A DNA stretch of 30,325 nt. Source: a virus. Position 1 is the first letter of the stretch; each line of letters begins with the position of its first letter. A program made the position numbers and the translations under genes. Below the pieces are notes generated by a model. The model did no database searches and had not been told where the DNA came from. It saw only the letters and a program-made list of their open reading frames with translations. The stretch lies in the IMG/VR virus record IMGVR_UViG_3300030390_001570, positions 16,457 to 46,781 of that record. One strand, written 5' to 3'. Positions 8,019 through 30,285 of this stretch are shown piece after piece.

Positions 8019-10244
8019 ATGGCTCTTATTGATTTTAAAGTCTTACCTGGAATAGATAAGCAAGACACAACATCTGGAGCAGAAAACAGATGGGTTGATT
8101 GTGATAATGTTAGGTTTAGATATAACTTACCAGAAAAAGTTGGTGGCTGGTCTTCATTAATATCAGATAGTATTGTAGGAGTTGCAAGACGTGAGTTTGC
8201 TTTTGTAGATTTAGAAGGTAATCGTTATGTTGCAATAGGAACTGACAAATTTTTACTTTTATATTTTGAAGGTCAAATATTTGATATCACTCCTATAAAA
8301 ATACCTTTAGCTTCTTCAACAATAGCAACTGTACAAAATTCCGCAGTGTGTACAATTACAACTGCTTCGACACATGGTTTTGAACCAGGAGATATTGTTT
8401 TATTTAATAGTGTAACTTTACCAAATAGCACTGGATATAATGCATCTGATTTTGAAAATAAATTATTTCAAGTAACTTCAACACCAACTTCAGTTACATT
8501 TACAATTACTCAAAGCTTTAATGCAACAGGTACAGTATCAACGGGTGGTAGTATATCTGTTATACCTTATGAAAAAATTGGACCTGCTGCACAATCATAT
8601 GGTTATGGTTTTGGTACAGGTCAGTATGGTGGAACTATTGCAGGTGCACAACAAACTACTTTAAATGGTTCATTAACTGCAGACACTGCAGGTACAGGTG
8701 GATCAGGAACTGTTATTAACGTTACATCAAACACAGGTTTTCCAACAGCAGGAACTATAGCTGTAGCAAACGAATTAATTACCTATACTGGAAAAGGAAC
8801 CAATACTTTAACAGGTATTACTAGAGGAGCTTTTGGAACTGCAACTGCAGGTACTTCAAATGGTCAAGCTCATTCAACAGGTGCAACGGTTACAGATGCA
8901 TCAAGCTTTACAGGTTTTGGAAGTGCCGTGCAAGCATCTAACGTGACTCTAGAACCAGGCCTCTGGAGCCTAAGTAATTTTGGTCAAGTTTTAGTTGCAA
9001 CTATTGCAAATGGTAAAACATTTACATGGAATGCAGGAGCAGCATCACCATTAACAGTTAGAGCTTCAACCGGTACTTCAGGTTTTTCAACAGCAAGTAA
9101 CCCAACTGCAACAAGAGTTACATTGGTGTCCCCTACAACACGTCACTTAATTCATTTAGGTACTGAAACAACTATTGGAGATACTACTTCTCAAGATGAT
9201 ATGTTTATAAGATTTTCTGATCAAGAAGATATAAATGATTATACACCAACAGCTATTAACAGCGCTGGATCACAAAGACTTCAAGATGGAACAAGAATTA
9301 TAGGTTCATTAAAAGCAAAAGAAACAATTTTAGTTTGGACGGATAATGCATTGTACACTATGAAATTTATTGGTGCACCTTTTACATTTGGGTTTGAGCA
9401 AGTTGGTACTAACTGTGGATTGATTGGAAAAAATGCAGCTGTTGAAATTGATGGTGTTGCATTTTGGATGAGTACAAATGGTTTCTTTATGTTTGATGGT
9501 ACAGTTAAATCACTACCATGTAGTGTTGAAGATTATGTTTATGATCAAGCAGATACAACTAAAGGTCAACAAGTAGCAGCAGGTATCAACAATTTATTTA
9601 CAGAAGTTGTTTGGTATTACCCCTCAACTAGTTCTGAGTATAATGATCAGTATGTAGTATTTAATTATGGAGAACCTATAAAAGGTGGTACTTGGTACAT
9701 TGGAACAGAAGCAAGAACTTCTTGGATTGATGCAAGTGTATATCAAAAACCAATAGCAACTAAATTTAATTCAACATCTAACGGAACTTTCCCTGCAATT
9801 ATAGGTCAAGATGGATTGGGCCAAACTCAATTATTTGAACATGAAGTAGGTACAGATCAAATTAATCAAGACGGAAGTACAACAACAGTTACATCATTTG
9901 TAAAATCATACGATTTTGATATACAGTCAAGACAAAAAAATGCACAAGGTAAATCAACAGGACCTGGTATATCTGGAGAAATATTTTTAGCTATGAGAAG
10001 ATTTGTACCAGATTTTAAAGACTTACAAGGTAATGCAAAAGTAACACTTGCTGTTAAGCGTTATCCTCAACAATCAGATACAAACACTTCTTTAAGCCCC
10101 TTTACAATTAACTCAAGTACTGATAAAAAGGATACAAGAGCCAGAGGCAGGTTTGTTAACATTAAGATAGAAAATACAGATGTTAGTGAATCTTGGCGTT
10201 TTGGTACTTTACGAATTGACATACAACCAGACGGAAAAAGATAA
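8019..10244 (+). CDS. Tail nozzle/stabilisation-like virion protein with FCCH-like insert
   Basis: 741 residues. The N-terminus (LPGIDKQDTTSGAENRW ... DNVRFRYNLPEKVGGWSS) and C-terminus (RGRFVNIKIENTD ... WRFGTLRIDIQPDGKR) match a family I recognise as podovirus tail-nozzle or DNA-stabilisation-type proteins. The core has repeated propeller-like strands (LWSLSNFGQVLVAT, MFIRFSDQEDINDYTP, TILVWTDNALYTMKF). Residues about 101-180 carry an FCCH-like module (CTITTASTHGFEPGDIVLF). A second module at about 222-296 contains GFPTAGTIAVANELITYTG. Both kinds are recurrent insertions in phage structural proteins. A strong AAGGAG precedes the ATG. The nozzle assignment rests on pattern recognition; the family is more certain than the exact position in the tail. 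Confidence 0.72.
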   Translation: MALIDFKVLPGIDKQDTTSGAENRWVDCDNVRFRYNLPEKVGGWSSLISDSIVGVARREFAFVDLEGNRYVAIGTDKFLLLYFEGQIFDITPIKIPLASSTIATVQNSAVCTITTASTHGFEPGDIVLFNSVTLPNSTGYNASDFENKLFQVTSTPTSVTFTITQSFNATGTVSTGGSISVIPYEKIGPAAQSYGYGFGTGQYGGTIAGAQQTTLNGSLTADTAGTGGSGTVINVTSNTGFPTAGTIAVANELITYTGKGTNTLTGITRGAFGTATAGTSNGQAHSTGATVTDASSFTGFGSAVQASNVTLEPGLWSLSNFGQVLVATIANGKTFTWNAGAASPLTVRASTGTSGFSTASNPTATRVTLVSPTTRHLIHLGTETTIGDTTSQDDMFIRFSDQEDINDYTPTAINSAGSQRLQDGTRIIGSLKAKETILVWTDNALYTMKFIGAPFTFGFEQVGTNCGLIGKNAAVEIDGVAFWMSTNGFFMFDGTVKSLPCSVEDYVYDQADTTKGQQVAAGINNLFTEVVWYYPSTSSEYNDQYVVFNYGEPIKGGTWYIGTEARTSWIDASVYQKPIATKFNSTSNGTFPAIIGQDGLGQTQLFEHEVGTDQINQDGSTTTVTSFVKSYDFDIQSRQKNAQGKSTGPGISGEIFLAMRRFVPDFKDLQGNAKVTLAVKRYPQQSDTNTSLSPFTINSSTDKKDTRARGRFVNIKIENTDVSESWRFGTLRIDIQPDGKR

Positions 10245-11893
10245 TGGCAAAAACTTTATTTGAATTAGCACAAGAATACTTAAATCAGGGAATGCCTGAT
10301 ATAACTCAAACCCCGAGAGTGGTTACACCACCAGCTACTACGATGCCTGTACCAATTCCTCCTGGAGGTTCACCTACAGCACGTATATTACCCATGCCTC
10401 AAGGAGGAGGCGGAGGTGGTTTTGGTGTTTATAATGCTGATCCTAATTCTACAAGAACACAAAGTAATTATAGTCCTTATGCTTATAGACAAGCTTTTGG
10501 AAAAACTGATTACCAGGATTTTAATCCAAGTAGTACATACGCTGCCAAACAAATGGAAATGAATCCAGAATACTATGAAGGTAAACAACTAACAGGTATA
10601 CCAGGCGCAGCTGCTAATTATTTAAAAAATAGTTTTCTAGGTAAAGGATTAAGTGCTTTAGGTGATAAGCTTCCCGTTAATAGAAGAGCTATATTAGAAA
10701 ATGAATTATTAGGTGCAGGAATGCAATTAAACGATATTGGACAATTTGTATCTGATGGTGGAGATATAAATAAAGCAGATGGGTCAAATATTATGGCGGG
10801 ATATAATGCTGCCAAAGTAACTCAAGAAACTTTTGATAAAAGAAGAGCTACAATTAATGCTAAAATGAAAGACCCTAAACAAAAAGCAGCGAAGTTAGCA
10901 GCTTTGGATGCAGCAGAAGAAAGTTTCTTTGGTGCAAAAACTAAAGCAGATATGGTTTTTGATGATAAATCTTTAACTAAAAATCCTGATTACGTATCTC
11001 AAAAAATTATAGATCAAAAAATAAAAGAAGCTGTAGAAGGTGAAGATGATAGCGATGATGATATAGATAGCTTTGATCCTTTAAATCAAATTGATTTTAT
11101 GCCAAGTTTTGCTGGTATGAATGCACCAAGTACTTTTACTTTAACTGCTCCACAGTATGGAGATTCTTTTGGTCAAGGCTATGGTTCAGGATATGGAAAT
11201 AATTCAATAATAACTGGAGGAACAAATCAAAATGATTTTGATGGACTTGGACCTATTACTGGAGGAACAAATCAAAATGATTTTGATGGACTTGGACCTA
11301 TTACTGGAGGAACAAATCAAAATGATTTTGTTGGACTTGGACCTATTACTGGAGGAACAAATCAAAATGATTATTCTGGTGGTGGATATAATGCCGGAAG
11401 TGGTTACAATACTACAGGTCAAGGTGGCCCTGCAGGTCAAGGAAGTATAACAAATCCTTCAAACTATGGAACAGGTAGTGGTAATTTAGGTGATTATCAA
11501 ATGCAACCTTCAACACCTACTTATCAAACTGGAACAACTCAAAGACCTGGATCAGGCGGTGGCGGCGGAGGTGGCGGCGGTGGCGGTGGCGGCGGCAAGA
11601 TAGTCTGCACCATGATGAATGAATCATATGGCTTTGGATCATTTAGAAATAAAATTTGGTTAAAACATTCAAAAGGTTTAGCACCTGAATATCAAAAAGG
11701 TTATCACAAATTATTTTTACCTTTAGTTAAATTATCTAAAACAAATAAAGTAGTTAGAAAAATATTAGAACACATTGCAGTTCACAGAACTATAGACATA
11801 CGTCAGGAATCAAGAGGCAAGGTACATTTACTAGGTAGATTATATAGAAAAATATTAGAACCTTTATGCTATTTGGTAGGTAAACATGGCTAA
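10244..11893 (+). CDS. Gly-rich virion protein with 45-bp repeats and conserved C-terminal domain
   Basis: 549 residues. The N-terminal region is Pro/Gly-rich (about 20-55), followed by a helical, charged middle (about 95-285). Then come 3.6 copies of the 15-residue unit TGGTNQNDFDGLGPI, a low-complexity Tyr/Gly/Gln region, and 14 consecutive glycines. The final ~97 residues (KIVCTMMNESYGFGSF ... HKLFLPLVKLSKTN ... GRLYRKILEPLCYLVGK) form a separate domain that I recognise from many marine phage proteins. Its function is unknown to me. The start overlaps the previous stop (TAATG). The flexible Gly hinge suggests a tethered, swappable terminal domain. Virion location is inferred from neighbours. 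Confidence 0.75.
   Translation: MAKTLFELAQEYLNQGMPDITQTPRVVTPPATTMPVPIPPGGSPTARILPMPQGGGGGGFGVYNADPNSTRTQSNYSPYAYRQAFGKTDYQDFNPSSTYAAKQMEMNPEYYEGKQLTGIPGAAANYLKNSFLGKGLSALGDKLPVNRRAILENELLGAGMQLNDIGQFVSDGGDINKADGSNIMAGYNAAKVTQETFDKRRATINAKMKDPKQKAAKLAALDAAEESFFGAKTKADMVFDDKSLTKNPDYVSQKIIDQKIKEAVEGEDDSDDDIDSFDPLNQIDFMPSFAGMNAPSTFTLTAPQYGDSFGQGYGSGYGNNSIITGGTNQNDFDGLGPITGGTNQNDFDGLGPITGGTNQNDFVGLGPITGGTNQNDYSGGGYNAGSGYNTTGQGGPAGQGSITNPSNYGTGSGNLGDYQMQPSTPTYQTGTTQRPGSGGGGGGGGGGGGGGKIVCTMMNESYGFGSFRNKIWLKHSKGLAPEYQKGYHKLFLPLVKLSKTNKVVRKILEHIAVHRTIDIRQESRGKVHLLGRLYRKILEPLCYLVGKHG
11213..11372 (+). repeat. 45-bp in-frame tandem repeat, about 3.6 copies
   Basis: The units start at 11213, 11258, 11303 and 11348; the last is partial. 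The first two copies are identical and the third differs by one base (Asp to Val). They encode the unit TGGTNQNDFDGLGPI in the middle of the Gly-rich virion protein. Near-identity at DNA level, including third codon positions, indicates recent expansion by slippage or unequal recombination. Confidence 0.92.
11555..11596 (+). repeat. Poly-glycine codon tract (14 GGN codons)
   Basis: Fourteen consecutive GGN codons, mostly GGC and GGT, form a very G-rich island inside an AT-rich genome. It is the hinge between the low-complexity region and the conserved C-terminal domain of the surrounding gene. Such a tract is likely to vary in length. Confidence 0.9.
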
Positions 11894-12648: not shown

Positions 12649-14019
12649 ATGCCAATTTCAAGAATGCAAAATCCAAGACAACTTTACGGACTAGGAAGTA
12701 TTGTTAAATCCATAGGTAAAGGTGTTAAAAGTATTATAAAATCACCTATAGGTAAAGCAGCCATATTAGGTTTTGGTGCTAATGCTCTTATGGGTGGAGG
12801 TGGTTTAGGTTCTATCTTGGGTAAAATGGGAATGACACAACCAGGATCTGGTTTTGGTGGTGGTTCAGGATTAATGGGTTTATTTGGTAAGGCTAAAAAT
12901 TTTATAGGTGGTTTATCTGGTACACAAAAATTAATAGGGGGTGCTGGTATCTTGGGTCTTGGAGGAGCTTTTGGAGGTATGGAAGATGAACAAGTAGAAG
13001 AATTAAAAGGAAACCCTGAAGCATTGAAACAATATTTAGCACAATACTATTCAAATTTAAATAAGAACGCTACACAAGCAGAAGTAGATAAGTTTGTACA
13101 AACTAACACATCAGAATACGCAATGGGTGGCAGAGTAAAATATGCAAGTGGTAGTGAACCTATGATATTACCTAAAGCTAAACCAAGAGAAAGTGATGGT
13201 AAAAGAGTATTAGATCTTTTAGCTAAAAATAAAAAAGCTTCTCAAAACACTTTAGGATCAAAAACTTTATTTAATCTAGTAGGACAAAATGCAGCTAAAG
13301 CATATAAAGCAGGAGACATTAGTAAGTCTCAATATGATAGTATGATGAAACCTTTCTTTGGTGAGCCTAGTGAGAGATTAAGTAAAAAAATATCAGAAGA
13401 ACAAAAAGAATTAAGAGCCAATGGTGGTAGAATAGGTTTTAATGAAGGTAGTTTAGATCCAAAAATTCGTGAAATAGTAATAGATCTTATGGACAATGAA
13501 GGTTTTGAATTTGGTCAAGCGGTTGAAGAAGCTTATAAAAGAATTGAAAAAACTAAACCTGGTAAAGCTAACGGTGGTAGAATAGGTTTTCTAGCAGGTG
13601 GTGATACTAAGTATAATTCAATGGTAACTAAAATGTATATACAAGCCGGTGGTGAAGAAGGCACAGGAATGGATATAGATAAATTTGCAAAGGAATATTT
13701 TAAAAAATTTAATAAAGGTGGTAGAGTACGTTATGCTTATGGGTCAGATGAGATCGTGGATCAAGCCTCAGGGATCATGGGTTTACCTCAAAGAACTAAT
13801 AGTGAGGGTATAAAAGAACTAGATTTAAGAGATAGTGGTGGATTTATTCCTCCAGTTGGTGTAAAAGAAAAGGCAGATGATGTTCCAGCAATGTTATCTA
13901 ATAACGAATTTGTAATGACTGCTGATGCTGTTAGAGGTATGGGCGGTGGTGATGTAAATAGAGGTGCACAACGTCTATATGATCAAATGAAAATGCTTGA
14001 AAAAGGAGGCAGAGTATAA
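12649..14019 (+). CDS. Putative internal/ejection virion protein with GGR motifs and tape-measure-like C-terminus
   Basis: 456 residues. Residues about 35-110 hold two Gly-rich hydrophobic stretches (AAILGFGANALMGGGGLG, LIGGAGILGLGGAFGG) that could enter a membrane. Five GGR(I/V) motifs occur at 160, 259, 309, 357 and 453. The middle three read NGGRIGFNEG, NGGRIGFLAG and KGGRVRYAYG. Near the end, DDVPAMLSNNEFVMTADAV (about 410-427) follows the VPAML-x-x-x-EFV motif known from the C-termini of tail tape-measure proteins. Such GGR-rich proteins are frequent in marine phages beside internal virion genes. A direct role in DNA delivery is inferred from context. No Shine-Dalgarno sequence precedes the start; see the promoter entry. 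Confidence 0.72.
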   Translation: MPISRMQNPRQLYGLGSIVKSIGKGVKSIIKSPIGKAAILGFGANALMGGGGLGSILGKMGMTQPGSGFGGGSGLMGLFGKAKNFIGGLSGTQKLIGGAGILGLGGAFGGMEDEQVEELKGNPEALKQYLAQYYSNLNKNATQAEVDKFVQTNTSEYAMGGRVKYASGSEPMILPKAKPRESDGKRVLDLLAKNKKASQNTLGSKTLFNLVGQNAAKAYKAGDISKSQYDSMMKPFFGEPSERLSKKISEEQKELRANGGRIGFNEGSLDPKIREIVIDLMDNEGFEFGQAVEEAYKRIEKTKPGKANGGRIGFLAGGDTKYNSMVTKMYIQAGGEEGTGMDIDKFAKEYFKKFNKGGRVRYAYGSDEIVDQASGIMGLPQRTNSEGIKELDLRDSGGFIPPVGVKEKADDVPAMLSNNEFVMTADAVRGMGGGDVNRGAQRLYDQMKMLEKGGRV

Positions 14020-14834
14020 TGGCCATAAATGAAACAAGAGTATTACCTGCAGAGTATATTGAAGCCGGTGGTAAAAGTTATTTAAATGATCTAACTACAG
14101 CAGTAGGTGATTATAAAGCAGCAGACCTTTCAAAAGTTTACGGTTCACAATTTGTAGCAGGACAAGATCCTTTACAAGCAGAAGCTGTTAAACAAGCAAC
14201 ACAAGGTATAGGTTCATACCAACCTTTTTTAAATGCAGCGCAAGCAGCAACGGGACCTCAAGGTTATCAACCTTATATGTCTCCATACCAACAAGAAGTC
14301 ATTGATCAAACTTTATCTGGTTTTGATCTTCAAGCACAAAAAGGTTTAGGTTCATTTGCAGATAATGCTTATACTGCGGGTGCATTCGGTGGAGCAAGAC
14401 AAGGTGTTCAAGAAGCAGAATACATGGCAGGTTCAGATAGAAACAGAGCAGCGCTACAAGCTCAACTATTAGGTCAAGGATTTAATCAAGCTCAGAACTT
14501 AGCTCAAAATCAATTTAACCAACAATCCGCTATGGCTAATCAAGTTCCTAACTTACAAGGTCAACAAGTTGCTGGTCTACAAACTTTAGGTTCAGGTCTA
14601 CAGACACAAAGACAAGCTGAATTAAGTGCACAACAACAGTTAGCTACACAAAATTTAAATCAAGGTTTAACAGCAGCTCAACAATACGGTGCAGGTGTTA
14701 CAGGATTGATTGCAGGATACCCTGGAAAAACAGTTCAAGAAGTAACTCCTAATGCAAGTCCTATGGCTAATTTATTAGGTACAGGTACTACGCTAGCTGG
14801 AATATACAGAGCATTCAACCCTTCAAAAGGATAA
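14019..14834 (+). CDS. Putative internal virion protein, Gln-rich
   Basis: 271 residues. I recognise the pattern YMSPYQQEVIDQTLSGFD ... AYTAGAFGGARQGVQEAEY as characteristic of a family located among internal virion genes of marine podovirus-like phages. The second half (about 140-235) is a long Gln/Ala/Leu-rich helix-forming region (LLGQGFNQAQNLAQNQF, SAQQQLATQNLNQGL). The C-terminus is Gly/Ala-rich and mildly hydrophobic. AAGGAGG lies just upstream and the start overlaps the previous stop (TAATG). By position and composition it is likely a core or ejection protein; no enzymatic motif is seen. Confidence 0.74.
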   Translation: MAINETRVLPAEYIEAGGKSYLNDLTTAVGDYKAADLSKVYGSQFVAGQDPLQAEAVKQATQGIGSYQPFLNAAQAATGPQGYQPYMSPYQQEVIDQTLSGFDLQAQKGLGSFADNAYTAGAFGGARQGVQEAEYMAGSDRNRAALQAQLLGQGFNQAQNLAQNQFNQQSAMANQVPNLQGQQVAGLQTLGSGLQTQRQAELSAQQQLATQNLNQGLTAAQQYGAGVTGLIAGYPGKTVQEVTPNASPMANLLGTGTTLAGIYRAFNPSKG

Positions 14835-14835
14835 C

Positions 14836-16218
14836 ATGAGTAAAGTATTTAAAAGACCTATGTTCAGAAGAGGCGGGAACGTTGGAACAGGCATCATGAC
14901 TGGTATCGTAGATAGATCTATGCATGCTGAAAATCCTTTTGTAATGGGTAATGCAGGAATGAATCCAGACGGTTTAGGTTTTAAAGAAACACCTGTTGAA
15001 GATGTAGTACTTCCAAATTCTAATCAAACATCTAATAATGTTGAAGATGCATTTAACACTGAATCTTTTAGAAGTACAGCTAGTGCAGGAACTCCTACTT
15101 CAGTAGAAGATTATATTTCACAAATAAAAGCAGGGGCTGGTGAATATGGAGGAATGGATCCTTTAACTTCTTATTTATTAACAGCTGGACCACAAATAGC
15201 CAAAGCAACATCTTTTGGTGATGCTATATCAAGATTAGAAAAACCTAATGCAGCTTTAATAGAATCTCAAGGTAAAAAAGCAGCTTATGATAGAGATTTA
15301 AGATTAGCTGCAACTAAAATGGGTATAGCCGATAAAAATAAATTTGAAGACAGACAATTTCAATTAGATGCACAAGCTGATCAAAGACGTTTTGATAGAT
15401 TAATTAAAACTGATGATAGAGAATGGAAATCTATGTTAATAAAAGATGAGAGAGATTACTTAGATTCTACTAAATTAGACGATAGAGAATGGAAAAAATA
15501 TTTAATTGGTGATGCAAGAGATTATGAAAAAAGATTATTAACAGATAGAAGAGATTATGAAAAATTAACTTTAGGTGAGAAACAAGCATATGATGAGAAA
15601 CTTTTAGGTGAAGCTAGATCATACCAAGATATGAAGGACTCAGAGAAAAGAGAATATGAAAAAGGATTAATTGCAGATGGTAGAATTTTTGAATTAGAAA
15701 AAATTACACGTAAAGAAAAATTTGAAGAGAAATTGATTGATAAACAATTAGATCAAGCTAAACTACGTACTTCAGATAACTATTTAGAATTTTATGGTAG
15801 AAGTGATGTTAAAGCATCAAATAGAGCAGACTATGAAAATAATAGAACAGAAGCTAAATTATTAGAATTGTTTGGAAAAGATAGCGCAGGTTTAATTGGT
15901 GGCGACAAACATGGATCTATTGAATCAATAATAAAAGGTAAGAAAAAGAAAAACATAGGTAAAGTTTTCTTTGATATAACAGATGGAACAACTAAAAGAA
16001 TTAGAAAAAATACAGATGGTAGTTTTGGTATTGAGATTATAGATCCTAATACTTTTGTAAAAGAAGTACCTATTAGTGATAAAGAAGTTTTATTAAATAA
16101 AAAAGAAAAAGATGAAAAAGAAAAAGAACGATTAGAAAAAGCTTACGGATTTCACATTCCAACTGTTATTGATGAAATACAAAAAAATAGTAAAACAAAA
16201 GAAGATATAAGTCCATAG
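14836..16218 (+). CDS. Putative internal virion protein with twelve 11-residue repeats
   Basis: 460 residues. The N-terminus, FKRPMFRRGGNVGTGIMTGI, is a motif (MF-R-x-GG-x-x-x-x-GIM-x-G) that I associate with marine phage structural proteins. Residues 171-302 are twelve uninterrupted 11-residue units with consensus (D/E)-x-R-x-(F/Y/W)-x-x-x-(L)-(I/L)-x, for example DDREWKSMLIK, DARDYEKRLLT and EKREYEKGLIA. This predicts a long, highly charged alpha-helix of hendecad type. The remaining C-terminal part is basic/acidic mixed (KGKKKKNIGKVFFDIT). AAAAGGAT precedes the start. It sits between the Gln-rich protein and the 1396-residue protein, so a role in the virion core or ejection conduit is plausible but unproven. 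Confidence 0.75.
   Translation: MSKVFKRPMFRRGGNVGTGIMTGIVDRSMHAENPFVMGNAGMNPDGLGFKETPVEDVVLPNSNQTSNNVEDAFNTESFRSTASAGTPTSVEDYISQIKAGAGEYGGMDPLTSYLLTAGPQIAKATSFGDAISRLEKPNAALIESQGKKAAYDRDLRLAATKMGIADKNKFEDRQFQLDAQADQRRFDRLIKTDDREWKSMLIKDERDYLDSTKLDDREWKKYLIGDARDYEKRLLTDRRDYEKLTLGEKQAYDEKLLGEARSYQDMKDSEKREYEKGLIADGRIFELEKITRKEKFEEKLIDKQLDQAKLRTSDNYLEFYGRSDVKASNRADYENNRTEAKLLELFGKDSAGLIGGDKHGSIESIIKGKKKKNIGKVFFDITDGTTKRIRKNTDGSFGIEIIDPNTFVKEVPISDKEVLLNKKEKDEKEKERLEKAYGFHIPTVIDEIQKNSKTKEDISP
15346..15741 (+). repeat. Coding 33-bp (11-residue) periodic repeat, 12 units
   Basis: Twelve contiguous 11-codon units can be laid out without gaps, each beginning with Asp/Glu (once Arg) and carrying an aromatic residue at position 5 and usually hydrophobic residues at positions 9-10. 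DNA identity between units is moderate, so the array is old and kept by selection on the protein pattern rather than newly expanded. Confidence 0.88.
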
Positions 16219-16226
16219 GAGAATAA

Positions 16227-19200
16227 ATGGCGGAACAATTTGTACCCTTAAACTCAGCAGAACAAGATAGTGAAACCTCTTGGTACACTGCAGCAGCAGC
16301 AGGAATTATATCCGGTATTATAAAAATACCTGAAGGAATAGTATCTCTTGGAGCAGAGTTAATTGATCTAGGTGCAGGAAGTGATACAGCAGCAGGTGTT
16401 GAACAATTTTTTGATAAATTAAATCCCTTTGAAGAAGTAGCTGAAGAAAGAGGTATAGGTAAACTTACAGAAGCTATAATGCAAATAGGTGTACCAGGAA
16501 CTATTGGTCTTAAAGTAGCTAGTAAAGCCGCAAGGAATTTAACTGCTAAAGCTTTAAAAGCAAAACGTGCTGGAGCTTATGCTCAATTAGGAACGCCACA
16601 ATTTAAACAAGCTTTAAATAAAGTAGGTGAGTTAAATAAAAAATTAAAAATTCCAAGATATGCAGCAGGTGTTATGGGTGGCGCAGCAGGAGAAGTGTTG
16701 GTTGCTGATGTTGAAGGTATTGGTACTTTTGGAGATATGTTTGATGGCGGACCTACTAAACTAGATAGAGAAGAAACTACTGGAAGAGATGAAGCTGGAA
16801 GAAAAATATTAAACAGATTAAAATTTGGTTCTGAATCTTTGTTAGTAACTCCTTTTGTTTATGGCGCAGGTAGAGGACTTAAAGAATTAGCTAATAGAGG
16901 TAAAGACGCAGCTTATAGTAAGTCTGCAATTATTAGAGCTTTAGATAAATACGTTAGAGCTCCTTTTGTACCTGAAGGAAATTTAGGTAAAGAAATATTT
17001 GATTCTGAAAATATGAAAGAAGCTTTAAAAGCTACAGATATAGGAAGAGCAAAACAAATAGTAGACAACCTTACTAGAGAAGTAGATGCTATATTTCCAG
17101 ATATTAAAGTTGCATTTGATGCAGGTTTAAAAAATGAAAAAACAGAATTTATGAGAAAGTTAGATGATATTCTTTTTGAAGGAGAACTTGGACAAGTTAT
17201 AGATCGTAAAAAAATAGATGATCTTTTAGAAACAATGAAAAAAGGTAATGTTAAAGAAGATTCAAGACAAGCTATAATTGGCGGATTAAATAATGCTAGG
17301 ACTGAATTTGTAGAGTTAATGGGTATGTTGGATAAATCTCTTGTTGGTAAAGTTACACCTAAAGGTAAAACACTTTCCAAAGGTCAAACAGAGTTAAAAG
17401 GTCTTTTATCTAAAAGAGTTAATAACTGGGTAGGGGGATCATATAAAATGTTTGAAGAACCTAAAGGATTATTTAAATTTATGAAAAGATATAAACCAAC
17501 ACAAGAAGCTAATGATAATGCAGTTAGATTTTTTAGAGAACAAATAGCTAAAGAAAATGGTGATAAAACATTTGACATAGCTAGCAATAAATACACTTTT
17601 GAAGCACAGGAAATAGTTGATAAATTTATTAAAGAAGGTGCAAAAAGAAAAAAACCAGCGCCTCTAGCTTTAAAAGAATTTGTTAATAAAACTATGGAAG
17701 GTAAATCTGGAGCTGAATTTATAAAAGAAGCTATGAAGACTGGTAATATTCCACCGCCAGCTATTAGAGAACTAATGGGAGAAATTAAAGATCCTAGATA
17801 TTCTATTTATAATGCTATGACTAGTTTATCTTCTGTTACAAGAACAGCAGCATATCTTAAAGATGTTTCTGCTAAAAATGATGCTGTACAATTAGGAGGA
17901 CAAAGAGGATTTTTTTGGCCAACTAAAAATGCTGCCGAAAATGCTGTTGATTTTAAAAATACAGGAATTGAATTAGTAGCTATAGACGATATTATAAAAC
18001 AAATGCCTGGAGCAGGTAAAATTGCTAATCCACTTGCAGGTAAATATACTACTAAAGAAATTGCAGAAGCAATTGGAAATGCTAATGGTATAGATACTTG
18101 GCTTCAAGGTTTTGTTAGAGGAGAAGGTAAAGAAGGAGCGGAAGCTGCAGCGAGTTGGTTTTATAGAAATTTATTATTATTTCCAAAAGGTATTTCACAA
18201 ATGTCTAAAACAATATTTTCTGCACCTACACACATACGTAATTTTTTAAGTGCTTTTGGTTTTGCCGGAGCTAATGGTAATTTATTTGAACCTGAATTTT
18301 ATACTAAAGCATTTGGGGAAGGTGTAGATGTTGCAGGTTTAGCTAAACTTGGTCCAACTAGTCCAAAAATGCAAACAGCTTATAGAGAACTACAAGAATT
18401 TGGTCTGGTAAATCAACAAATTCAAGTAGGAGATATGAAAGGTATGTTCGAACAAATTCAAACTCTTGGCATATCACCTAATGTAGATGGCGTGTTAGGA
18501 GCAATGATGAAAAAATTAAAAAAAGTAGGTCAGTTTGCTCAAGGAAAATATATTCAAGAAGATGATACTATTAAAGTGGCAAGTTATATAACTGAGATGG
18601 GTAAATTAAAAAGAGGGTACGCTAAAGCCGGAATGCAAGTACCCCAAGATATATTAAAATTTGTTCCTGAAGAACAATTGCTTAAAAAATATGATGATTT
18701 AATGGAAGCTGGTTATAATAAAACATACAAAGAATTTAAACAAACAGAATCTTTAAAAAGAATGGCTGTAGAGATTGTTAAAAATACTGTTCCCAATTAT
18801 GCTTACGTTGGGTCAGCTGTTAAAACAGCAAGGTTATTACCTATAGGTAATTTTATGTCTTTCCCATCTGAAATGATAAGAACTACAACTAACATTGCAG
18901 AGCTAGGAATAAATCAATTAAAACATTCAGGTAAAACTAAAGGAAGTAACATTCTTCCAATGGTATTTGATGTAGAAGCTAATGCTTTTGTTAAAAATGA
19001 TAATCCTTTTTACGGAGATGGAATGAAAAGATTATTGGGTTTAGCTACATTTACTACAGCTGCACCTATTGCAATAACTGAAGGAGCAAAAGCTTTATAT
19101 GATGTAACTCAAGATGAGTTAGATGCTTTAAGAAGATTTGTACCGGATTGGTCAAAAAATTCTACTTTAATTCCAGTTAGAGATGATGAAGGAGAATTAA

Positions 19201-20417
19201 GATATATAGATTTTAGTGGTAGTAATGCTTACGATGTTGTTGCTAAACCTTTAAGAACAGTAATAAATAATATTCAAGATGGTAAAATGACAGATCAAGG
19301 TTTATTAGAATCGTTTGTGACTGGTGTTAATGAAGCAGGCGCTCAATTATTAAATCCATTTATATCAGAATCTATTTGGATAGAAGCGGCTAATGATTTA
19401 GTTGTAAGAGGTGGAAGAACAGATGATGGTAGACTTTTATACACAGATCAAACTTCAGCAGGAGATAAAGCAGCAATTAGATTTCAACATTTAGGTAAAG
19501 CCCTTCTTCCAAGTATTAATCCCTACAGAAGACTATTTCAAGCAGCTACAGATACTCCTACTAAATCAGGTCAAGAGTTAGATATAGGTTCTGAGTTAGC
19601 AGGATTTATGGGTATGAGACCTATTAAAGTTGACCCTTTAAGAACAATGAATTTTAAAATTGCCAATTATCAATCTGGTATTAGGAATGCTAGAAAAGAA
19701 TTTACAGGAGGTTTTTTTGGATTATTGAAAGGTGGTCCTGTTGAAGAAGAAGATGTAATTAAAAGATTTATTGCTTCTAACAAAGCAAGATTTGGAGTTC
19801 AACAAGAAATGTTTAGAGATTTAAAAGCTGCCGAAGAATTAGGTGTGGAAAGATATGAATTAAATAATTCATTTAAAGAAAGACAATTAAGTGATGACGC
19901 TTTCTATTCTTTAATAAATTCAAGATTTACTCCGTATTTTCCTTCTGAAGATATTGAAAATAAATTTAGAGAAATTGCAAACAATTTAGATATAGAAAAT
20001 CCTTATTTATCTGCAAAAAATGATTTAAATTCTATTAGGGCTCAACTTAGACAATTAGGTTTTGATCAAAAATTTAGAAATGAGTTTGCTATAGGGGGAC
20101 ATGTTGAATCTACTGCTTTTACAGAATCCATAACAGGTATCGTTCCTGTTTTAAAAAGATTAGATTATGCTATGGGTAATATGAATTTGGAAGAAAGTTT
20201 TGACGAACAAGTAGATCTTTCAGATTTTATAGATACATCAGAAAAAATGCCTACACCACCTTTACCAAATACCCCAATGCCTAACCAAAATGTTATACAG
20301 GCAAGTATCAAGGCTCAAGCAACAGAACCTTTGAATGATGGATTAACCAACACCGAAAACGCATTATTATCTCAAGAAGAAAAAATGATTAGATTAAGAC
20401 AGAGAGGTTTAGCATAA
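16227..20417 (+). CDS. Very large putative internal virion/ejection protein
   Basis: 1396 residues, the largest protein here. Residues about 20-60 are Ala/Gly/Ile-rich and amphipathic (YTAAAAGIISGIIKIPEGIV), and 145-175 are also hydrophobic (AAGVMGGAAGEVLVADVEGIG). The central part is long, mixed alpha-helical and Lys/Glu-rich. Hydrophobic patches recur at about 945-965 (ATFTTAAPIAITEGAKALY). Near the C-terminus, FAIGGHVES echoes the GG-motifs of the two upstream structural genes. No protease, lysozyme or polymerase motif is visible. Size and position match the large ejection proteins of podoviruses (compare T7 gp16 by role only). AGGAG precedes the ATG. A virion role is likely; the activity is unknown. 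Confidence 0.72.
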   Translation: MAEQFVPLNSAEQDSETSWYTAAAAGIISGIIKIPEGIVSLGAELIDLGAGSDTAAGVEQFFDKLNPFEEVAEERGIGKLTEAIMQIGVPGTIGLKVASKAARNLTAKALKAKRAGAYAQLGTPQFKQALNKVGELNKKLKIPRYAAGVMGGAAGEVLVADVEGIGTFGDMFDGGPTKLDREETTGRDEAGRKILNRLKFGSESLLVTPFVYGAGRGLKELANRGKDAAYSKSAIIRALDKYVRAPFVPEGNLGKEIFDSENMKEALKATDIGRAKQIVDNLTREVDAIFPDIKVAFDAGLKNEKTEFMRKLDDILFEGELGQVIDRKKIDDLLETMKKGNVKEDSRQAIIGGLNNARTEFVELMGMLDKSLVGKVTPKGKTLSKGQTELKGLLSKRVNNWVGGSYKMFEEPKGLFKFMKRYKPTQEANDNAVRFFREQIAKENGDKTFDIASNKYTFEAQEIVDKFIKEGAKRKKPAPLALKEFVNKTMEGKSGAEFIKEAMKTGNIPPPAIRELMGEIKDPRYSIYNAMTSLSSVTRTAAYLKDVSAKNDAVQLGGQRGFFWPTKNAAENAVDFKNTGIELVAIDDIIKQMPGAGKIANPLAGKYTTKEIAEAIGNANGIDTWLQGFVRGEGKEGAEAAASWFYRNLLLFPKGISQMSKTIFSAPTHIRNFLSAFGFAGANGNLFEPEFYTKAFGEGVDVAGLAKLGPTSPKMQTAYRELQEFGLVNQQIQVGDMKGMFEQIQTLGISPNVDGVLGAMMKKLKKVGQFAQGKYIQEDDTIKVASYITEMGKLKRGYAKAGMQVPQDILKFVPEEQLLKKYDDLMEAGYNKTYKEFKQTESLKRMAVEIVKNTVPNYAYVGSAVKTARLLPIGNFMSFPSEMIRTTTNIAELGINQLKHSGKTKGSNILPMVFDVEANAFVKNDNPFYGDGMKRLLGLATFTTAAPIAITEGAKALYDVTQDELDALRRFVPDWSKNSTLIPVRDDEGELRYIDFSGSNAYDVVAKPLRTVINNIQDGKMTDQGLLESFVTGVNEAGAQLLNPFISESIWIEAANDLVVRGGRTDDGRLLYTDQTSAGDKAAIRFQHLGKALLPSINPYRRLFQAATDTPTKSGQELDIGSELAGFMGMRPIKVDPLRTMNFKIANYQSGIRNARKEFTGGFFGLLKGGPVEEEDVIKRFIASNKARFGVQQEMFRDLKAAEELGVERYELNNSFKERQLSDDAFYSLINSRFTPYFPSEDIENKFREIANNLDIENPYLSAKNDLNSIRAQLRQLGFDQKFRNEFAIGGHVESTAFTESITGIVPVLKRLDYAMGNMNLEESFDEQVDLSDFIDTSEKMPTPPLPNTPMPNQNVIQASIKAQATEPLNDGLTNTENALLSQEEKMIRLRQRGLA

Positions 20418-29275: not shown

Positions 29276-29437
29276 ATGTTTGTAAAATGTAAAACTTGTG
29301 GCCATGGGTGTCACTGCGATGAAGATAAGATTGATTCAGGGCATTACTCACCTTTAATGGATATATGTGGATGTAAAAAATGTCTTCATGAAGCGGAAAA
29401 AGAAATTGAATACGAGGAGTGTTTATCATGTCAATAG
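29276..29437 (+). CDS. Small Cys-rich zinc-ribbon-like protein
   Basis: 53 residues starting MFVKCKTCGHGCHCDED and ending EECLSCQ. Nine cysteines (5, 8, 12, 14, 31, 33, 36, 49, 52) plus several histidines occur as C-x2-C, C-x-C, C-x-C-x2-C and C-x2-C pairs, pointing to one or two zinc sites. It overlaps the next gene by ten bases. Small zinc-binding phage proteins often bind nucleic acid or host proteins; no particular family can be assigned. The start is chosen because it is the first ATG after an extended -10 box and gives the cysteine pairs in frame. Confidence 0.68.
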   Translation: MFVKCKTCGHGCHCDEDKIDSGHYSPLMDICGCKKCLHEAEKEIEYEECLSCQ

Positions 29438-29727
29438 CAGAATTATTTAAGAAAAACTTTGTATTAGTACCTGTCATAGCATCCGTTCTTTTTGGAACAT
29501 TTACAGGCGTTAAATATATTGTCAATTTAACAGACACAATTAATTCTAATCAAACTCAAATAGTAAATCTTCAAAGAGATTTAACTGTAGCCCAAGAAAA
29601 ACTTACAGATCAAAACACAAGATTAACTTCTGCAGAATCTACGTGGCAGATGGCAGAGAATCTTTATCGACAGCTCGCCGATGAAGTACGGGAACATAGC
29701 TACGATATTAAGGATTTAAACAGGTAA
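29428..29727 (+). CDS. Membrane-anchored coiled-coil protein, spanin-like layout
   Basis: 99 residues from the ATG at 29428 (MSIAELFKKNFVLVPVIASV); a GTG three codons earlier is less likely because GAGGAG lies eight bases before the ATG. One hydrophobic segment (about 11-31) is followed by a polar coiled coil to the end (NSNQTQIVNLQRDLTVAQEK, EKLTDQNTRLTSAEST, DEVREHSYDIKDLNR). An N-terminal membrane anchor plus periplasmic coiled coil is the layout of inner-membrane spanins, but also of other small phage membrane proteins. The downstream gene encodes a secreted protein, which fits a membrane/envelope pair. The spanin idea is inference. Confidence 0.66.
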   Translation: MSIAELFKKNFVLVPVIASVLFGTFTGVKYIVNLTDTINSNQTQIVNLQRDLTVAQEKLTDQNTRLTSAESTWQMAENLYRQLADEVREHSYDIKDLNR

Positions 29728-29745
29728 TGTATGGAGACTCTCAGG

Positions 29746-30285
29746 ATGGATTACAGATTTACTGCACTATTAATTGTAATGTTTACACTTTTAACTTTGT
29801 TTGCAAAACCTGCGTATCCAAGAAACGAGTATTTAAATAATGGGACTAATAGCTGCAGAACTGGTGAAGTCGATGTTAGACTCCAAAAAGAAGACAGAAA
29901 CAACGACTATAGACATTTTAATAATGATAATAGTTATGATAATGATTCTGATAATGGTAGTATTAGCGTAACTTACAGACACTACATAGGTACAGCTTGC
30001 ACAAAAGAATTTAGACAAGTGCAGCAAGAGAACATGGAATTAAAACAACAATTAGAATTAATGAAAATGTGTGGTAGAGTTAACAGCAACCCTAGTCTTG
30101 CACAAAATGAAAACTTTAGATTATTGGTATCAAAGTGTACGGGTGTAACTCCAGTTAAATTAGATAACAGACCAGCAAATGGCAAAAGTAAATGGGATGA
30201 ATTAAAAGATAAATATAAAAAAGAAAACCCAAAACTTAAATTAATGGGTGATAAATTTTTAACATTACCTGTACCTAAAGAATGA
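29746..30285 (+). CDS. Secreted Cys-containing phage protein, unknown function
   Basis: 179 residues from the ATG at 29746, preferred over 29731 because GGAG lies nine bases upstream and the signal peptide then begins MDYRFTALLIVMFTLLTLFA. The AKPAYP that follows offers a signal peptidase site. The mature part has an Asn/Asp-rich stretch (RNNDYRHFNNDNSYDNDS), a helix (QVQQENMELKQQLELMKM) and four cysteines (SCRTGE, ACTKEF, MCGRV, KCTGVT) that could form disulfides in the periplasm. It follows a membrane/coiled-coil gene and may work with it at the envelope. No named domain recognised. Confidence 0.66.
   Translation: MDYRFTALLIVMFTLLTLFAKPAYPRNEYLNNGTNSCRTGEVDVRLQKEDRNNDYRHFNNDNSYDNDSDNGSISVTYRHYIGTACTKEFRQVQQENMELKQQLELMKMCGRVNSNPSLAQNENFRLLVSKCTGVTPVKLDNRPANGKSKWDELKDKYKKENPKLKLMGDKFLTLPVPKE

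Follow-up and report, generated by a model that had tools for sequence, protein, structure and literature searches.

Among the described systems closest to the locus reported here, the pilot protein H of phage phiX174 forms over residues 151-271 a decameric tube 170 Å long, in which residues 151-183 make up three hendecads that are followed by eleven heptads, and the lumen is mostly lined by Gln, Asn and Arg (available text of PMC7354561). Sf6 gp12 is described, in the accessible part of its report, as a decamer with a 25 Å channel, a tube-like stem and a predicted coiled coil at residues 223-293 (PMC4755594). SU10, a Kuravirus, releases five ejection proteins, gp20-24, from its head, as stated in the available sections of PMC9509320. 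Here we describe a 460-residue candidate ejection protein encoded at 14836..16218 (plus strand) of the window, by which we mean the whole stretch of 30,325 bases analysed (bases 16457-46781 of a source record of 46,781 bases). Like phiX174 H, as far as the available text on H goes, it is a candidate DNA-delivery protein with hendecads inside a long, here predicted, helix. Unlike H as described there, it carries twelve hendecads in which an aromatic and an Arg position are conserved, and it is known from its sequence and a single-chain model; no sequence match between the two proteins was found.

The gene also resembles its counterparts in the P22 7-20-16 and Sf6 11-12-13 sets in being the middle one of three, and its product is of similar size. 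However, P22 gp20 and Sf6 gp12 themselves, whose families correspond to phrog_2534 and phrog_917, differ from the window protein in lacking a hendecad chain, although a member of these families in Vibrio phage D279 carries the first half of the hendecad motif, (D/E)-x-R-x-aromatic, hereafter the half-motif. Profile comparison of the window family with gp20/gp12 (hhalign, alignment A2 against A5) gave a probability of 0.6, no detectable homology, and membership of the P22 gp20 family was rejected on this ground; nor was there any PHROG match. The likeness to SU10 lies in the portal of the window phage, which matches SU10_portal. In Pelagibacter phage HTVC027P, gp84 (MN698241) occupies the orthologous position between gp83 and gp85 and has an N-terminus 68% identical over 31 residues, but unlike the window protein it has 279 residues and no repeats. 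Microvirus VP2 pilot proteins (Tortoise microvirus 70, bajarodmic virus 1064) share the 11-residue periodicity and the R-x-aromatic half-motif; in contrast to the window phage, however, microviruses are unrelated ssDNA phages, the rest of the protein is unrelated, and the aliphatic half of the unit is poorly kept. No description of the hendecad family or of its repeat was found in the open-licence phage and pelagiphage literature, as far as its available text extends.

The phage and its gene cassette

HTVC023P-type pelagiphages are delimited, in the available text of PMC9599517, by a PolA at least 45% similar to those of cultured members. The PolA of the window phage is 72.3% identical to that of HTVC027P and 47.8% identical to that of HTVC023P, and lies within this limit. 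Judged by PolA, then, the phage is a short-tailed, HTVC023P-type pelagiphage, a type of virus whose hosts are the SAR11 bacteria of the ocean. The piece of the record upstream of the window (L091) encodes the terminase, the portal (Pfam SU10_portal, 3.5e-16) and the major head protein.

The 460-residue protein itself has no Pfam or PHROG family at E<=1, and a further PHROG search gave no match at E<=0.01. Directly upstream of its gene lies that of a 271-residue protein (14019..14834, plus strand) of the DNA ejection protein family phrog_4287, which is matched by 30 of 33 upstream homologues (best 1.9e-11) and by the window's own copy at E=0.015; profile comparison of this upstream family with P22 gp7 showed no homology. 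Ahead of the cassette stands a gene for a 456-residue protein (12649..14019, plus strand) with a weak tape-measure-like C-terminus (phrog_5448, E=2.5e-4). Directly downstream is encoded a 1396-residue protein (16227..20417, plus strand), homologous over its whole length, at 38% identity, to HTVC027P gp85, a 'putative structural protein'. The hendecad gene thus occupies the middle position between two other injection genes, the downstream of which is so classed by position only, since four of 22 downstream homologues match the virion structural family phrog_22602; Pfam gave nothing useful on these 22. This order is widely kept: of 80 loci, 77 have an ORF that stops just upstream of the gene, and a large ORF follows it in 54. 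The sequence-only reading had predicted an ejection protein, and the place of the gene in a cassette whose upstream homologues mostly match a DNA ejection protein family agrees with that prediction.

Several other features lie in the window and in the upstream piece. A GG(R/N)(V/I) motif occurs five times in the 456-residue protein and again at the N-terminus of the 460-residue protein (sites at 13126, 13423, 13573, 13717, 14005 and 14872, plus strand), as well as in a 117-residue protein encoded upstream of the capsid gene (L091:7283-7636). The window has 11 copies of its DNA form where 2.74 would be expected, a number that none of 100 shuffles reached, and from its sequence the motif could be a shared loading or binding tag. 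The 117-residue protein also contains one strong hendecad unit, DKRKYDQKLLK (score 16.7), and adjoins a 128-residue phrog_2524 protein with hydrophobic stretches. A 549-residue protein (10244-11893, plus strand) has near-identical GLGPITGGTNQNDFD repeats and a poly-glycine run ahead of its C-terminal part. The ORF at 29419-29727 (plus strand) weakly matches Rz-like spanins (E about 0.01), and together with that at 29731-30285 (plus strand) it may form a lysis spanin set.

The twelve repeats and their predicted helix

Residues 171-302 of the protein (15346..15741, plus strand) consist of twelve contiguous 11-residue repeats, as found by lag identity, a register scan and motif counts. Self-identity of this segment is 0.27 at lag 11 and 0.33 at lag 22, against about 0.04-0.14 at most other lags, and none of 20,000 shuffles attained the lag-11 value, whether lag 11 alone or all lags between 3 and 39 were considered. 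A register scan seeded with these units gave a chain score of 163 over exactly residues 171-302, whereas the best of 100 shuffles scored 16.7. The uninterrupted array of twelve units that had been claimed from the sequence is therefore confirmed. The motif then given for the unit, (D/E)-x-R-x-aromatic-x-x-x-L-(I/L)-x, proves looser than claimed: D/E stands at position 1 in 11 of the 12 units, R at position 3 in 10, an aromatic residue at position 5 in all 12, L at position 9 in six and I/L at position 10 in eight, and while the first half is present in 10 units, the complete pattern is found in just four. With a 33-base lag identity of 0.49, the repeats are old at the DNA level.

AlphaFold2, run on a 37-sequence alignment (mean pLDDT 69, pTM 0.29), predicts the repeats as one long, twice-kinked helix spanning residues 127-309 (15214..15762, plus strand), with short breaks at 244-245 and 265-267, so that the predicted helices 127-243, 246-264 and 268-309 contain nearly all of the repeat. 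This monomer prediction, proposed as a check in the sequence-only reading, supports the helicity that was favoured there. Values of pLDDT are mostly 70-88 in the long helix and fall to about 49 near residues 221-230, where a helix break is therefore possible. The conserved N-terminus, residues 1-36 (..FKRPMFRRGGNVGTGIMTGIVDRSMHAENPFV; 14836..14943, plus strand), has invariant columns in alignments A1 and A2 and is predicted to be disordered, residues 1-76 having a pLDDT below 50. A conserved segment at residues 105-134 (GGMDPLTSYLLTAGP..AISRL; 15148..15237, plus strand), in which D108, P109, T111, L114, L115, G118 and P119 are invariant in A2, is predicted to comprise a short helix (109-122) and the start of the long one (from 127). 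Behind the repeats, residues 324-402 (15805..16041, plus strand) make up a small conserved helix-strand C-terminal region, from predicted helix 324-335 to predicted strand 397-402, the elements of which are matched in order in the model of the repeat-free relative L089. In L089 (271 residues; pLDDT 61, pTM 0.35) the flanking elements have the same order and a 55-residue helix is predicted at 76-130, so that the repeats look like an extension of one helix. A fold search with the predicted structure gave no match at E<=0.001, the long-helix matches being judged meaningless, and sequence searches found no solved structure related to the family, to its repeats or to either neighbouring protein (best E 0.21-0.23, taken as chance).

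If helical, the 132 residues of the repeat would extend over about 20 nm at 0.15 nm per residue. On an 11/3 helix the aromatic position lies at 33 degrees (an aromatic residue in 95% of 287 units) and leucine-9 at 65 degrees (64% hydrophobic), while position 10 lies at 164 degrees (54% hydrophobic), about 115 degrees from the aromatic/leucine side. There are therefore two seams and not one stripe, the first made of aromatic-5 and leucine-9 and the second of position 10; positions 2 and 6 sit between them, position 6 being 82% acidic or amide. Such an angle would be expected of a helix flanked on two sides by others, like a stave of a barrel, and positions 2 and 6 would then face inward. What stands of the aromatic/leucine stripe first proposed is modest: the hydrophobic moment at the fixed 11/3 angle is reached by 92 of 20,000 shuffles, but with a free angle the moment, which peaks at 97.75 degrees, is below the 95th percentile of shuffles, and the overall amphipathicity of the repeat is weak.

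Repeat number and length among relatives

A scan with the protein as query found 7 relatives and a scan with alignment A1 found 194, 80 of which were kept; 63 distinct full-length relatives were read, which gives 64 proteins when that of the window is counted. The N-terminus RPMFRKGGNVG..IMTGIVDR and the DPLTSFLLTAGP segment are common to the family, a C-terminal region with NRAxYE and GKVYYD segments is common to the members aligned in A2, and the middle is variable. Repeat chains scoring above 25 in the register scan, of 4 to 12 units, were found in 29 of the 64 proteins, the others having short chains or none. Because the scan may miscount the units by about one where a chain begins or stops, we relied on length, measured in the A2 members between the Pro of the GP segment and the Asn of the NRA segment. 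This length is 210 residues in 3 proteins, 199 in 13, 188 in 2, 177 in 1 and 166 in 2, so that 21 of the 23 repeat-bearing members fall in whole 11-residue steps, the two exceptions measuring 178 and 184. Four of the six distinct lengths other than 210 are whole units away from it (P about 9e-4 if lengths were free, the proteins being related and thus non-independent). Among the 14 A2 members that have no repeat chain, one lies on the 11-residue series and the others are scattered, and whole-unit steps are also seen in L042 and L043, where the motif is mostly lost. Since unequal recombination between repeats would give like steps, the lengths show that the register is kept, not why. The unit DQRRFDRLIKT of the window is missing as a single clean 11-residue gap in four compared relatives of 400 residues. 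Judged by length, L023 is shorter than the window protein by one unit. The dN/dS of the repeats is 0.16-0.38 in eight pairs, below that of the rest of the gene in six and slightly above it in two, and by this measure the repeat codons are under purifying selection.

On a tree of 40 phages, built on the downstream protein by a quick method with a midpoint root, 10-12 units are found in nine phages, 2-7 in seven and none in 24, among them HTVC027P. At least five changes of repeat number are needed on this tree, and phages with 12, 7 and 2 units cluster on branches of about 0.01-0.05. Read from these sequences, repeat number turns over fast, and the cassette as such appears not to need repeats. 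When L042 and L043 are set against the closely related L032 and L033 and L023, L027 and L028, the downstream proteins are similar but the middle segments are very different, with 2, 7 or 11-12 units, which suggests frequent exchange of the segment. The comparison of repeat number among relatives, also proposed in the sequence-only reading, thus yields a range from 12 units to none within one orthologous cassette, and it does not favour the strut of envelope-crossing length suggested there, at least if that length is fixed: near relatives differ in unit number, and HTVC027P, which was isolated on SAR11, has zero, and a fixed envelope ruler was rejected for these reasons. With relatives carrying fewer units or none, the helix looks like a length-adjustable part of a DNA-delivery machine.

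The half-motif in other proteins and the role of the helix

A scan of 2303 distinct ORFs of at least 60 residues in loci L001-L093, which were chosen by similarity and are therefore no random sample, gave chains scoring above 30 in 36 ORFs. Thirty-four of these belong to the family, and the other two are VPHD279_0019 of Vibrio phage D279 and a protein of Tortoise microvirus 70 annotated as hypothetical. VPHD279_0019 matches phrog_2534 (4.8e-24, profile 203-401), as P22 gp20 and Sf6 gp12 do, and the gene after it matches phrog_770, as does P22 gp16. Its hendecads (48-102) lie at about the profile position of the coiled coil predicted for Sf6 gp12 at 223-293 in the available text of PMC4755594. 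In viral contigs, a scan for four consecutive half-motifs returned 43 contigs, of which 24 belong to the family (22 recognised by a sequence tag, the other 2 being variants), 11 hold other open proteins that fall into six groups, and eight were dropped as artefacts (L094, L095, L097, L105, L107, L114, L124 and L125). In group L121 the half-motif stands beside a P22 gp7-like match (1e-11), P22 gp7 matching the same phrog_598; three of the six groups lie near phrog_3287 virion structural/head-closure genes, namely L108 (tested for a six-contig group), L109 and L116; and L096 and L099 gave no informative match. The aliphatic half differs in some of the six groups. The annotated DNA pilot protein of bajarodmic virus 1064 has a lag-22 identity of 0.41 and a low family-profile chain score, 8.8.

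Two further candidates were dropped: in Bajarodmic virus 55 the ORF with the match carries a replication initiator annotation, and the pilot protein has no chain, and a Zymomonas match has 11-residue repeats of a different kind, with a chain score of 0. Up to about 17 consecutive hendecads of the ENRDYxRAxNE type were seen in phage proteins (L112:99-1727, L108:8805-10460, L111, L119, L132 and L098); that of L112 is followed by a giant protein of 1854 residues, and that of L108 is preceded by a phrog_3287 structural protein. Genome contigs, scanned for four half-motifs in a row, gave at least 116 stretches. Most of these were DNA repeated in tandem, frames read through stop codons, or proteins rich in Gly/Pro or in Arg, and by eye none of the stretches listed had the aliphatic half. 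Bacterial proteins with DRRDYRxDRR 11-residue repeats (L153, L200, L149, L197, L201 and L216), which we take to be possibly RcnB-like, share the half-motif and lack the aliphatic half. It is conceivable, though we regard it as doubtful, that the (D/E)-x-R-x-aromatic hendecad is a recurrent DNA-delivery block, a telescoping conduit in 11-residue quanta that arose independently in pelagiphage cassettes, in P22-type gp20/gp7, in other phages (up to about 17 units) and in microvirus pilot proteins.

For the window protein itself we tentatively favour, at somewhat less than even confidence, an ejected virion protein whose hendecads build a straight helix of variable length that is probably bundled into part of a DNA conduit. 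In its favour count the repeat and its register, the predicted helix, the whole-unit lengths, the purifying selection, the cassette, and the half-motif in a P22 gp20/Sf6 gp12-family injection protein, beside a gp7-like match and in a microvirus pilot protein. As the product of the middle gene of a three-gene DNA-ejection cassette in an HTVC023P-type pelagiphage, it would be a virion protein that is stored in the head and leaves it ahead of the DNA or together with it, as gene position and neighbours suggest. The predicted helix, nearly straight, would stand between an N-terminal helical part and a small C-terminal domain, and the length comparison shows that whole units are gained and lost with the 11/3 register unbroken. 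Several copies would most likely pack side by side via the aromatic-5/leucine-9 and isoleucine/leucine-10 seams, and the resulting bundle or tube would prolong the short tail so that it enters or spans the envelope, in the manner of the phiX174 H tube or the stem of Sf6 gp12. Repeat number would then set the length of this element, which would not be essential to the core function. Against a conduit it must be said that neither homology to gp20 nor a solved relative or fold match was found, that 24 of the 40 phages in the tree have no repeats, that amphipathicity is weak, and that a single-chain model of moderate confidence says nothing of oligomers; virion proteomics of pelagiphages were not found in the open-licence literature, as far as its available text extends.

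The long predicted helix, and a large variation in length that is tolerated down to none, would also agree with a plain coiled-coil rod, a dimer or trimer, ejected or internal, which serves as spacer or tether without a channel, for example by holding ejection proteins around the portal axis; P22 gp20, according to the available text of PMC4992974, is believed to be incorporated into the virion close to the portal barrel in dimeric or trimeric form. We consider such a rod rather unlikely, because two seams about 115 degrees apart fit two neighbours better than a simple dimer and because the analogues of known structure, as described in the available parts of their reports, are decameric tubes. 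Less probable again is a monomer whose repeat serves as a spacer in the form of a single charged alpha-helix (SAH, ER/K type): 52% of the residues are charged, and pairing of charges from i to i+3/i+4 is strong in L013 (5 of 5000 shuffles) and L016 (77 of 5000), but in the window the pairing is matched by 1809 of 5000 shuffles, no better than chance, 28% of the residues are hydrophobic and every unit has an aromatic, features that SAH helices are not known to have. Lipid-binding 11/3 helices occur in apolipoproteins, synuclein and perilipins, and an amphipathic helix of this kind that binds membrane lipid and disturbs the host membrane at entry would be in keeping with the 11-residue periodicity, the aromatic/leucine side and the moment peak; we think it improbable, since the moment with a free angle is not above shuffles and lengths are quantised in whole units even where the motif is mostly lost, as in L042 and L043. 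The slightest chance is that gene order misleads and the protein is part of a tail fibre or scaffold, a stalk outside the genome-delivery path, to which many short upstream genes in the window that we read as virion-surface-like and the weak match of one relative, L120, to a tail-fibre PHROG (E=0.016) might point, but the gene sits between the DNA ejection family gene and the giant protein in the examined loci, and the half-motif is also found in named injection and pilot proteins.

The family thus presents one helix with none to twelve units in phase-keeping steps, a natural length series with which one can ask if a tube is built by ejection proteins and if the length of such a tube is of consequence. 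The half-motif in a gp20-family injection protein and in a microvirus pilot protein would, in addition, make it possible to test unannotated phage proteins, from their sequence, for segments that form conduits.
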